Notes under the pieces: generated by a model
What the model was told of the DNA's origin: nothing
Databases searched by the model: none
Seen by the model: only the letters and a program-made list of their open reading frames with translations
Position numbers and translations under genes: made by a program
Shown: piece by piece, positions 10,173-13,463 of the stretch
Position numbering within the stretch: position 1 is the stretch's first letter
How the letters are laid out: every line of letters starts with the position of its first letter
Assembly: GCA_030052355.1 (NCBI GenBank)
Contig: JASIGS010000077.1
Location: 1 to 13,463, forward strand
Length of the DNA stretch: 13,463 nucleotides
Origin: Streptosporangiaceae bacterium
GTDB taxonomy: Bacteria > Actinomycetota > Actinomycetes > Streptosporangiales > Streptosporangiaceae
Direction of reading: 5' to 3'

Positions 10173-11093
10173 TCAGGGCTGTTGGCAGGCGATGTCGGCC
10201 ACGGCCCAGCCTTGTGCGGCGAGCACGATGACGGCCAGGATCGGCCGGCCACTCCCGGAGTCCATCGTGACGAGGCCGGCCGAGCCGCCCGCGACAACGT
10301 CCGCGGACCGCACCGACACGTCTCGGACGCCGGTGCGGGAGCACAGCAGCGGGTCGTAGCCGAGGGGCCGCCGACCCGACGCGGTCAGCGCTTGCTGCAG
10401 ATAGGCGCTACCCGTCTCAGGTCCCCCCGACAGCCGGGCTTTCAGCTCGTCCGGCATCGAGATCCCCTGCCGGCGTCCCGCCACGTACGCCTCATACAGC
10501 GAAGCTGCCGCGTCCCTGGCGCCTGCGCGCGTCACGTCGCTGCCGCCGATCGCGCAGGTGAGTCCGGTGATCTTGCCGGTGCGCGGCTGGCTGGCAGCGA
10601 TGATGTACAGCGCCTGCTGGGCGGTTCGCCACCGGGCCACCACGACGGCCTGGCCGGCGATCACGCCAGCCTGCTGGTACTGCGGAGCCGCGGTCCAGGG
10701 CACGCCGCATCCCGGCGGGCCGGCAGAATCCGGGGATGCCTCCAGGATCGGTACGTACCAGGTCGCGACGCGCGCGCGGATCAGCGCGTCGACCGCCGCC
10801 TTACCGTGCGCGGCCGCCTGCGGGTAGGCGCGGAAGAAGGCCTCGACGTTGGCGATCGCGGCCGCTTCCGAACCGGTGGCGGCAGTAGCCGAAGAGCGGC
10901 TGGGGCTCGGCGAGGCCACCAGAGCCAGACGGCGGCCGCGGCCTGATGAGGATGCCTCGGGCCGGCCGCGACTGGCCGGGTGCCCGGCAGCACCGAGCAG
11001 CAGCCCGGCGGTCACCCCGGCCGCCGCGACCACGACTCCCGCCATGACCGTGGCGGTTATGATCACGCGTCTCGTGCGACTTCGCCCGGGCAC
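10173..11093 (-). CDS. Membrane-anchored or exported protein of unknown function
   Basis: 306-aa protein that I do not recognise. The N-terminus is RSRTRR followed by one hydrophobic segment (about residues 10-36, VIITATVMAGVVVAAAGV). A Ser/Pro/Gly/Arg-rich linker follows (about 38-75), then an extracytoplasmic domain with four Cys residues (GPPGCGVPW, GLTCAIGG, LLCSRTG, IACQQP), enough for two disulfides. There is no lipobox. I chose GTG 11093 (GGAGG four bases upstream); GTG 11108 is in frame and would add five residues. The weak pattern VEAFFRAYP...ATWYVP could indicate an NTF2-like fold, but I would not assign it. More than 200 bases separate it from the sigma locus. Confidence 0.75.
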   Translation of the reverse strand: MPGRSRTRRVIITATVMAGVVVAAAGVTAGLLLGAAGHPASRGRPEASSSGRGRRLALVASPSPSRSSATAATGSEAAAIANVEAFFRAYPQAAAHGKAAVDALIRARVATWYVPILEASPDSAGPPGCGVPWTAAPQYQQAGVIAGQAVVVARWRTAQQALYIIAASQPRTGKITGLTCAIGGSDVTRAGARDAAASLYEAYVAGRRQGISMPDELKARLSGGPETGSAYLQQALTASGRRPLGYDPLLCSRTGVRDVSVRSADVVAGGSAGLVTMDSGSGRPILAVIVLAAQGWAVADIACQQP

Positions 11094-11108
11094 CGCGCCT
11101 CCACTCAC

Positions 11109-11316: not shown

Positions 11317-12843
11317 CTATGCGAGCCGAAGCTCAGGGTTACGCAGCTCGATCCTGCCGGGGCCGGCGAGGAACACGCCGAATACGACGGCGTCGGTGTC
11401 CGCTGGCACGTGGGCGGACACCCGGCGCGGTACCCAGGCCGGGTCAGCGGGCACCTCGGTGACGTTGTTGTCGGGATCGGCGAAGGCGGCCTGCTCGGTC
11501 AGCGGACCGCGGATGGGCCGTCCCTCCTTGACCCGCAGGAACAGTCCCGCCCGGCCGTCGGGAACCCGGAACTCGCCGCAGAACACCACCGTGGAGCCTC
11601 GGTAGTCGTCGGCGTAGACCTCCTGACCGAGCATGGCGAATCCGGCGGGCTCTGGCACTGCCGACGCGACCGTCGCGGTTCCCTCCCCGGCGACGCACTC
11701 ATAGTCGTGCCAGCGCGAGTCGCTGACGTTCGCGCTGAAGCTGCCTCCGAATAGCCAGCCGTCGAGGCCGTCGGCGAAGTTCGCGTTGCGCGGCGAGTAC
11801 CGAGGTCGCCGGAGTCGCGCCGAAACGGGCCCGCCGGGTCCGGGCGCAGCTCTGACCAAACCGCCGCCCGGCCCCGCCTCAAGGACCGGAGTCGTCCCCG
11901 CGGGAACGGCAAGCCGGTCCATCACCGTGTCCGCCACGCGGATGGGAGCGCGGGCCGCGATCGCAATGGCGAGTCCCTCGACGAGCCGCACGGTGACCTG
12001 CCGGGAACCCGCTGAGCCGGTCACCCCTATCCGGGCAGCGGCCACCTCGGGGCCTAGCTCGCCGATCTCCACCCCGGTCACGCTGGCGCCGAGTGCTCGC
12101 AGCACGCGGGCCGTGAGCCCATCTGCGGTCTGATCGGGTTCGGGCCGCAGAAGCCGCTGCAGGCGGAACCCATCATGGTTGAGGAACCACAGCGGCAGCT
12201 CCCGGCCGCCCGCGTCGTCGGTGAGGAGGACGAGGTGCGTGGGGCGAAATGGGCTATTCCGGTACTGTCGGCCGGCGTGGGTGATCCGGACGGTAGCCAT
12301 CGACGGCCTCCTGGCGGCGGGCACGAGATCGGGGCGATGCTTGGTGAGGTAGGCCCGCATTCTGCGGCGGGCCTTGTGCAACCTCGCTCTCGTCGCGCCC
12401 TCGCCTGCCTCGCCGTCGGCGTAATAGCGCAGAACTACGGTGCGACGCTCTTCGGCCGGAAGCTCCGCCATCGCTGACCGGAGCGCGTCAGCCCGGTCGA
12501 TGTCGTCCGCCGATGGCACCCCGTCATTGGCGACCGGGTGCAGCGGCTCTGGCCAGTCGGGCAGCAGCGTGGGCTGGCCGCGGCGCCGCAGTCCGTGGCA
12601 GACGTTGGCCGTGATGCCCGCCAGCCAGGCGGCGAACCGGTCGGGGTCGCGGAGCTGGTCAAGCGCGATAAACGCGCGCAGGAACGCCTCCTGCATGACG
12701 TCGTCAGTGTCGCTCAGGTTGGCGCACAGCTGTTTCGCCCGCGCGCGGACCATGGGCTGGTGCCTCTCGACGAGCAGGCGGAACGCCACCTCGTCACCGT
12801 CGCGCGCAAGGAGCACCAGCTCGCCGTCACTGATGTCAGGCAT
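11317..12843 (-). CDS. ECF-like sigma factor fused to BFN/DUF151-like and C-terminal beta-sandwich-like domains
   Basis: 508-aa three-part protein. Residues 5-90 are sigma region 2 (DEVAFRLLVERHQP; DTDDVMQEAFLRAFIALDQL; RFAAWLAGITANVCHGLRRR). Region 4 (about 117-175) has LPAEERRTVVLRYYADG and GATRARLHKARRRMR but lacks about 10 residues between them, the first part of the DNA-binding HTH. Residues 182-312 resemble the bifunctional-nuclease domain: HLVLLTDDAGGRELPLWF, VLRALGASVTGVEIGELG, and AIAIAARAPIRVADTVMDRL. The usual PIWIG and SDAIALA signatures are altered (PLWFL; VEGLAIA), so nuclease activity is doubtful. Residues 347-508 form a C-terminal domain (PRNANFADGLDGW ... GPGRIELRNPELRLA) that I take as a carbohydrate-binding-like beta-sandwich. 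It overlaps the upstream paralogue by 8 bases (ATGCCTGA). A possible second start lies at 12300. No anti-sigma gene is seen. Confidence 0.85.
   Translation of the reverse strand: MPDISDGELVLLARDGDEVAFRLLVERHQPMVRARAKQLCANLSDTDDVMQEAFLRAFIALDQLRDPDRFAAWLAGITANVCHGLRRRGQPTLLPDWPEPLHPVANDGVPSADDIDRADALRSAMAELPAEERRTVVLRYYADGEAGEGATRARLHKARRRMRAYLTKHRPDLVPAARRPSMATVRITHAGRQYRNSPFRPTHLVLLTDDAGGRELPLWFLNHDGFRLQRLLRPEPDQTADGLTARVLRALGASVTGVEIGELGPEVAAARIGVTGSAGSRQVTVRLVEGLAIAIAARAPIRVADTVMDRLAVPAGTTPVLEAGPGGGLVRAAPGPGGPVSARLRRPRYSPRNANFADGLDGWLFGGSFSANVSDSRWHDYECVAGEGTATVASAVPEPAGFAMLGQEVYADDYRGSTVVFCGEFRVPDGRAGLFLRVKEGRPIRGPLTEQAAFADPDNNVTEVPADPAWVPRRVSAHVPADTDAVVFGVFLAGPGRIELRNPELRLA
12298..12312 (-). 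promoter_or_regulatory. Internal ribosome binding site and ATG at the sigma/BFN junction
   Basis: AGGAGG (12312-12307), six bases, ATG (12300-12298), in frame with the 508-aa ORF at Met182. This is the best Shine-Dalgarno in the window. It would yield a 327-aa BFN plus C-terminal-domain protein without the sigma part, whose 181 residues are a normal ECF sigma length. Either two genes fused by loss of a stop, or a gene with dual translation starts. Confidence 0.65.
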
Positions 12844-13463
12844 CGCCGCGCCGCAGTTCCGGACTCCGCAGCCAGACCCGGCCGCTGCCGGTCAGGATGA
12901 TGCCGAAGCGGATCATGTCGGCGTCTTCGGGAACGAGGGCGGAGACCTCGTCGCTGGACCAGTTCCTGCTGCCGGCCGCCGTGGCGACCCGCTCCTGTTC
13001 GCGGTCCTGTTCCTTTCCGCGCCACAGAATCCGCAGGCACAGCCCGGCGCTCCCCGCGTCGTTCTCGGTGCGGAACTCCCCGCGGAACTTCCCGCGGAAC
13101 ACGACCCGGGCGCCGCGGAAGTCGTCCGCGAAGATCGTCTGCATCAAGGCTGCGGAGCCAGAAGGTTCGGGAGCCGCTGACGAAAGCCTCGCCCACCCGT
13201 CCCCGGCCACGACGTAATAGTCATCGGGAACGGAGGCATACAGGTGCCAGCGGTCAAGGCCGTCCGCGAACTCCATGTTCCGCGGTTCGAAGCGAGGCCG
13301 CTGGCCGACAAGCTCGACCGGGACGTCCGGGGTGCGCCCCTCGTGACGAGAGATCATGGGGTGCCCTGGTCCGGCCGGTGGGCCTTGGAAGAGCGCGGCC
13401 GGGTCGTCACCCGGCACCGGCACGGCGAGCCGGTCCATCAGCGCGCTGTCGACCCGAACCGGC
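12836..13463 (-). CDS. Paralogue: end of BFN-like domain plus C-terminal beta-sandwich-like domain (5' end missing)
   Basis: The C-terminal 208 codons of a gene entering from the right edge. The first visible residues, PVRVDSALMDRLAVPVP, match PIRVADTVMDRLAVPAG in the neighbouring sigma/BFN protein. After a linker, PRFEPRNMEFADGLDRW, VVAGDGWARLSSAAPEPSG, IFADDFRGARVVFRG, VPEDADMIRFGIILTGSGRV and WLRSPELRRGDA follow the same order as in the paralogue. So the pair arose by duplication. Whether this copy also carries a sigma domain is outside the window. It has an expansion (FRGK-FRGE-FRTE) encoded by 12-bp repeats that the paralogue lacks. Its stop overlaps the sigma/BFN start, implying coupled translation. 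The ATG at 13438 is internal to the BFN domain and is not the true start. Confidence 0.8.
   Translation of the reverse strand, partial: PVRVDSALMDRLAVPVPGDDPAALFQGPPAGPGHPMISRHEGRTPDVPVELVGQRPRFEPRNMEFADGLDRWHLYASVPDDYYVVAGDGWARLSSAAPEPSGSAALMQTIFADDFRGARVVFRGKFRGEFRTENDAGSAGLCLRILWRGKEQDREQERVATAAGSRNWSSDEVSALVPEDADMIRFGIILTGSGRVWLRSPELRRGDA
13070..13105. repeat. Three 12-bp tandem repeats inside the paralogue gene
   Basis: Units GCGGAACTCCCC (13070-13081), GCGGAACTTCCC (13082-13093) and GCGGAACACGAC (13094-13105, diverged end). They are read in frame on the minus strand as FRGK, FRGE and FRTE-type tetrapeptides. The paralogous protein has a single GEFR at this point, so this is a recent in-frame expansion within the C-terminal domain. 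Confidence 0.8.

Follow-up and report, generated by a model that had tools for sequence, protein, structure and literature searches.

An old fusion of an ECF-like sigma factor to BFN and CBM-like domains with a conserved start signal at its junction

A ribosome-binding site placed between two domains of a single long reading frame raises the question whether the gene is a recent fusion or specifies two proteins. We addressed this question for a gene on contig JASIGS010000077.1 of a Streptosporangiaceae bacterium (assembly GCA_030052355.1); the whole stretch analysed, 13,463 nucleotides, is referred to as the window. On the minus strand of the window, a 508-codon frame (12843–11317) joins an extracytoplasmic function (ECF)-like sigma part to a BFN domain and a beta-sandwich resembling a carbohydrate-binding module (CBM), and the sequence AGGAGG-N6-ATG sits exactly at the sigma/BFN junction. 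An initial sequence-only reading had described this frame and its junction, which we confirm, and had explained them either by a recent gene fusion through stop-codon loss or by a dual start. This turned out to be a false choice: comparison with relatives points to an old fusion in which the module's start signals have been retained. The features of the locus are listed below.

11317–12843, minus strand: fused sigma-BFN-CBM-like gene, 508 aa, start ATG, stop TAG
12577–12774, minus strand: sigma region 2, residues 24–89
12334–12498, minus strand: shortened sigma region 4, approximately residues 116–170 (Pfam fragment only, E 0.17)
12307–12312, minus strand: internal Shine-Dalgarno sequence AGGAGG, conserved in relatives
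12298–12300, minus strand: proposed internal start ATG (Met182), 6 bases 3' of AGGAGG, predicted product 327 aa
11899–12300, minus strand: BFN (DUF151) domain, residues 182–315
11320–11802, minus strand: C-terminal CBM-like beta-sandwich, residues 348–508
12836–13463, minus strand: upstream stand-alone BFN-CBM paralogue, 3' part, cut at the window end
12836–12843, minus strand: ATGCCTGA, stop of the upstream paralogue overlapping the sigma start

The proposed three-part architecture was borne out by Pfam profiles, a structure model and fold matches. Region 2 of the window sigma part matches Sigma70_r2 (E 3.9e-14) and also the corresponding fold. The BFN assignment rests on the PF02577 profile, which scores above its gathering score, and on a match to the fold of the BFN protein TM0160. 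The C-terminal part had been called a beta-sandwich, and its fold match is indeed to the CBM jelly roll; no Pfam CBM match was found for the window protein at E ≤ 10.

The fusion is widely shared among relatives. A protein search scored 7994 candidates and returned 1320 proteins at E ≤ 1e-10; the protein-level counts given here refer to the best 120 of these 1320. All 120 span the sigma-BFN junction, and 118 carry both a sigma-region-2 and a BFN label. P0033 has no BFN label, though its alignment covers 99% of the query, and P0034, a 404-residue record from a short contig, has no sigma label. At the DNA level, a scan of GTDB genomes gave 121 loci, 80 of which were kept. Eleven of these (L001–L011) belong to the sigma-BFN-CBM family, while the other 69 (L012–L080) match the sigma part only. 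All 11 family loci come from metagenome-assembled Streptosporangiaceae, Actinomycetota or Actinobacteria. After exclusion of L011 as broken, the window and L001–L010 formed the set of 11 intact loci used for analysis of the junction. In all 11 the frame is open through the junction, without a stop between the two parts, and the fused form is present in relatives with identities as low as 46–47%. A tree of 40 rows, 25 fused and 15 stand-alone BFN-CBM modules, divides the two forms by a single branch (support 96/89); it is unrooted, so that the order of origin of the two forms is not fixed. These sequence comparisons contradict a recent fusion by stop-codon loss and indicate that the fusion is old. 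The family is patchy nevertheless: when up to 25 candidates per genome were scored in 60 genomes surrounding one carrier, it was detected in two, namely the carrier itself (G001) and the already-known G004. No relative was found in the viral collection searched.

Two family loci deserve separate mention. In L011 (6001–6662), the sigma frame enters the C-terminal domain out of frame and without BFN, which represents either decay or misassembly. Assembly G003 contains three copies of the fused gene (L004, L005 and L010), two with and one without an upstream paralogue; this may reflect a strain mixture.

The start signal at the junction is conserved far beyond expectation. GGAGG-N6-ATG/GTG occurs in eight of the 11 intact loci, compared with 0.23 expected in total from synonymous codon resampling (P ~2e-12 with relatedness ignored), and the count rises to 10 once GGAGA is allowed. 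We ranked the in-frame ATG and GTG codons of each gene by pairing of their upstream sequence with the anti-Shine-Dalgarno (anti-SD) sequence. The internal site comes first in eight of 11 loci and second in two (L001 and L003); the level of −8 kcal/mol is reached by only four of 185 other in-frame ATG/GTG codons. In eight of 10 genes the internal site outscores the start of the sigma part. At the protein level, the residue at the start position is Met in 111 of the 120 relatives, Val in eight and Arg in one, and Val is encoded by GTG in both cases available as DNA. The spacing Arg-x-x-[Met/Val] is constant in 118 of 120, with a preceding linker of 0–4 residues; on our reading, P0016 would fit as well if its preceding Val is taken as the start. 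Conservation thus strongly supports a dual start, and we consider it highly probable that the internal start is both conserved and used, in which case translation of the window gene would also initiate at position 12300. Regarding dual starts, the initial suggestion stands as far as conservation of ribosome site, start codon and spacing can carry it. Homologues that are always fused and lack the internal site had been named as the finding that would speak against it; among the relatives examined the fusion is indeed constant, and the internal site is there.

Several observations weigh against this conclusion. Taken by itself, the motif of the window carries little weight and could be due to chance, as 34 of 200 shuffles contain one; a chance origin was ruled out by the comparison among relatives, not from the window. 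The P value is overstated, the 11 loci representing only about five lineages. L004 retains only AGG-AAG at the junction, and its internal site ranks sixth of 18 in anti-SD pairing. L001 and L008 are the two genes in which the internal start scores lower than that of the sigma part. Among the proteins, P0071 has the Arg at the start position, and in 24 of the 120 relatives, known as protein only, the junction reads P-R-[RS]-x-M.

Could the junction sequence be conserved for another reason? The Shine-Dalgarno sequence may be a fossil from the time before the fusion, or a pause site at the domain boundary allowing sequential folding of the sigma and BFN parts, with little or no free product in either case. 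Its position exactly on the boundary is compatible with both, and its resemblance to the start region of the stand-alone gene is what would be expected of a fossil. A fossil should decay at synonymous positions, yet GGAGG is retained in the pairs L007/L009 and L005/L009, where 39–50% of the junction synonymous sites outside the motif differ. A pause site, for its part, requires no start codon, whereas all but one of the 120 relatives have Met or Val at position 182, with GTG for Val where DNA is available and at fixed spacing. We regard this explanation as distinctly unlikely. Less likely still is that the Arg-Arg and Met residues are kept for the sake of the protein, the DNA motif being a by-product. 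Such a constraint would agree with the Arg at −3, aligned in 120 of 120 relatives, and with the prevalence of Met182. It fails to explain the codon chosen for this Arg, three positions ahead of the start: AGG in nine and AGA in two of the 11 loci, when these two codons together make up 7.8% of the 588 Arg codons of the same genes. It also fails to explain the exchange of Arg for Gly at −4 in L002 and L003, where the GG is kept (GGG-AGG).

A second copy of the module is encoded next to the fused gene. In nine of the 11 loci (window, L001–L003, L005 and L007–L010) a stand-alone BFN-CBM gene is located directly upstream on the same strand; it is cut off in the window and in L002. The window copy groups with the stand-alone rows in the tree. 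In L003 (5998–6510), the upstream paralogue is a 168-residue open frame comprising the BFN part only. The stand-alone gene starts with GGAGG-N6-GTG in L005 and L007–L010, a layout matching the internal start of the fused gene. Among the best-listed relatives of the L007 stand-alone copy, a script pattern finds the annotated start to coincide with the homologous residue in 111 of 120 and inspection by eye in 114; the other six begin further inside (five) or further outside (one). Two points weigh on the other side: in L001 the stand-alone gene lacks a clear Shine-Dalgarno sequence, and no upstream paralogue is present in L004 and L006, so that it is not essential. In the window, the sigma ATG shows weak anti-SD pairing (−3.5) and is overlapped by the stop of the upstream gene; therefore translation of the long form probably depends on coupling to the upstream gene.

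The operons share a promoter-like element. The upstream regions of seven operons have GGTNAC-N18-CACTAA in common (N19 in L001). In seven genomes (~44 Mb), GGTAACC-N16-ACACTAA gave four exact matches, all at sigma-BFN-CBM operons, and six of seven matches with up to one mismatch were also at such operons. Allowing two mismatches added the operon matches G002:C74 and G007:C339, the latter adjoining a stand-alone gene at a contig end. At this level there were 50 matches, eight at operons, and the other 42 were near the control level (34 control matches). A separate element scan of the seven genomes revealed 14 matches, seven at operons and seven elsewhere versus eight control matches, and a control with the spacer one base longer gave 22 matches versus 35 control matches. 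The element thus appears specific to these operons in the relatives of the window; a wider regulon was not found in the seven genomes, the non-operon matches being near control counts. As a point against applying this to the window itself, the window ends before the promoter of its own operon, and the element is known from the relatives. ECF promoters typically have an AAC core in the −35 region and usually CGT in the −10 region (PMC3426412). The −35-like part of the element has the AAC core, and CGT is missing from the −10-like part.

The distance between the −10-like hexamer and the first codon is short. The first GTG of the operon follows the hexamer at a distance of five bases in L003, L004, L006 and G007:C339; this spacing between CACTAA or CACTTA and the first GTG is seen in L003 from 5969, L141 from 1501, L004 before 2378 and L006 before 2410. 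The arrangement suggests leaderless messages. In L001 (4837–4869) and L009 (4920–4964), a GTG at the same distance opens a frame of 10 or 14 codons, as judged by eye, whose stop overlaps the GTG of the stand-alone gene. These short frames, which are not kept in L010, possibly encode a coupled leader peptide.

Is the sigma part able to read such an element? Sigma70_r2 was found in all 73 aligned family members. The family has a shortened region 4, and the clade of the window an even shorter one: two landmarks that are 22 residues apart in SigE are separated by 18 residues in 53 of the 73 members and by 13 in 17, including the window (the pattern was unmatched in three). The missing residues precede the recognition helix. 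In the window, region 4 stays below the Pfam cut-off, and residues 135–157 are modelled with a predicted local distance difference test (pLDDT) score below 50. For the longer relative P0119, region 4 is predicted to consist of two helices, a three-residue helix and a last long helix. The ratio of non-synonymous to synonymous substitution rates (dN/dS) was determined for five locus pairs, all from loci outside the clade of the window. It was 0.21–0.30 for region 2, 0.33–0.40 for region 4, 0.27–0.98 for BFN and 0.19–0.70 for the C-terminal domain, indicating a conserved sigma part and a module changing faster in some pairs. In the fused genes of L005, L007 and L009, the BFN and C-terminal domains change far faster than the sigma part (BFN dN/dS 0.98 in L005/L009), as though a sensor were diversifying.

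The BFN part departs from TM0160 at the putative active site. In that protein the site has been proposed to consist of Thr57, His58 and Asp115 (PMC7249048). In an alignment of ~20% identity these residues correspond to Ala240, Asp241 and Glu289 of the window protein. Position 240 is Ala in 56 and position 241 Asp in 63 of the 73 members, and position 289 is acidic in 71 (Glu in 47, Asp in 24). Of the putative catalytic residues, then, only the acidic one is kept, with Asp standing where the histidine would be, and this makes nuclease activity doubtful. From the sequence, a role in pairing or ligand binding is more likely.

Two alternative functions were considered. The sigma part might tether the module to RNA polymerase rather than act as a full promoter-reading sigma factor, the element being read by another sigma factor. 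The shortening of region 4 and its weak profile match in the window agree with this. However, 56 of the 73 members still match Sigma70_r4_2 at E ≤ 0.01, the recognition-helix segment itself is strongly conserved, region 4 has the low dN/dS values given above, and the operons are preceded by a specific element whose AAC core is of the ECF type. A tether is thus unlikely. A nuclease guided by the sigma part, with BFN cutting nucleic acid either at promoters or within early transcripts, appears very unlikely. The domain and its TM0160 fold are present, and DNase and RNase activity is reported for plant DUF151 proteins (PMC7249048), but the histidine of the TM0160 site is absent, the site being only putative and the alignment distant.

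Our preferred model is that the sigma factor regulates its own operon and that its activity is adjusted by free copies of the module fused to it; as a whole this model is plausible, just short of probable. A single BFN-CBM gene would have been duplicated to give both modules, and a sigma frame would have joined one of the copies, whose start signals were retained. The locus would be a self-contained operon for an ECF-like sigma factor and would probably regulate itself. Its single transcript would encode the stand-alone BFN-CBM protein and then the sigma-BFN-CBM fusion, and the fusion message, with a ribosome site and a start codon of its own at the junction, would yield the long protein plus a free BFN-CBM module. 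The CBM-like domain may bind a sugar-like or other small ligand. Free modules would pair with sigma-linked ones via their BFN domains and so set the amount of active sigma factor. Such pairing is proposed because DUF151 homodimers are reported for TM0160 and Rv1829 (PMC7249048). The same source describes two plant DUF151 paralogues which, though 80% identical, form no heterodimers, and this weakens the pairing idea. The free module would be an in-built anti- or co-sigma factor, its ratio to the linked form being fixed by the strength of the ribosome site. A more specific form of this proposal, which we consider possible but rather doubtful, is a sigma gene that encodes its own anti- or co-sigma factor. 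Three BFN-CBM versions would then coexist (the paralogous free one, the own free one made from the internal start and the sigma-linked one), the free:linked ratio would set a threshold, and the sigma factor would mainly serve its own promoter.

Among known systems, the nearest parallels by analogy are ECF41 sigma factors and, for the coding arrangement, two-polypeptide phage endolysins. ECF41 resembles our system as an ECF sigma factor with a soluble fused regulatory domain and no adjacent anti-sigma gene seen (PMC3426412, PMC8999054), and by a conserved promoter motif with the neighbouring transcript as sole detectable target (PMC3426412). It differs in that the ECF41 extension is SnoaL-like, whereas the window protein carries BFN and CBM-like domains, and in that the promoter is TGTCACA/CGTC (PMC3426412), compared with the GGTAACC-type GGTAAC/CACTAA in relatives of the window. 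Neither the SnoaL-like C-terminal domain nor the TGTCACA promoter that defines the ECF41 group was found here. A free upstream paralogue and an internal start, known here from sequence alone, further set the sigma-BFN-CBM operon apart. ECF52 (SCO4117) and ECF42 are further actinobacterial ECF sigma factors with large extensions at the C terminus (PMC8999054, PMC5826349). ECF52 shares a carbohydrate-binding domain but has a zinc finger and transmembrane helices in its extensions (PMC8999054), and ECF42 has tetratricopeptide (TPR) repeats (PMC8999054, PMC5826349); no BFN domain appears in these descriptions of either group. TM0160, Rv1829 and plant BBD proteins share the BFN fold, and homodimers are described for stand-alone DUF151 proteins (PMC7249048), whereas the window BFN domain is fused to sigma and CBM-like parts and has Asp in place of the putative catalytic histidine. 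In two-polypeptide endolysins, the free C-terminal part made from an in-frame internal start assembles with the full-length enzyme (PMC9430671), some forming 1:3 or 1:5 complexes (PMC9430671). These are unrelated cell-wall enzymes, and the second product has been shown there while it is only predicted for the sigma-BFN-CBM gene. Pairs of proteoforms read in one frame have also been described in bacteria (PMC11005335). Among the matches listed from open-licence PMC articles, none dealt with a sigma-BFN protein.

Regulatory tails fused to ECF sigma factors have been described before, but their mode of action is often unclear; 15 of 26 extension-bearing ECF groups are still to be studied (PMC8999054). 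That the start site of the module has persisted over deep divergence points to a function of the free module. The fusion also places BFN/DUF151 in a new context, that of a module which is likely regulatory and lacks the putative catalytic histidine. Annotation by one protein per frame would overlook such a conserved second product across many metagenomic records.

Beyond the two-gene module, no conservation of the neighbourhood was evident in 11 sources, as judged with a crude gene finder based on G+C content at third codon positions (GC3) and with gene names read by eye. The downstream neighbour in the window (10173–11108, minus strand), without a Pfam match at E ≤ 10, encodes a protein of 311 aa with a hydrophobic stretch in its N-terminal part.
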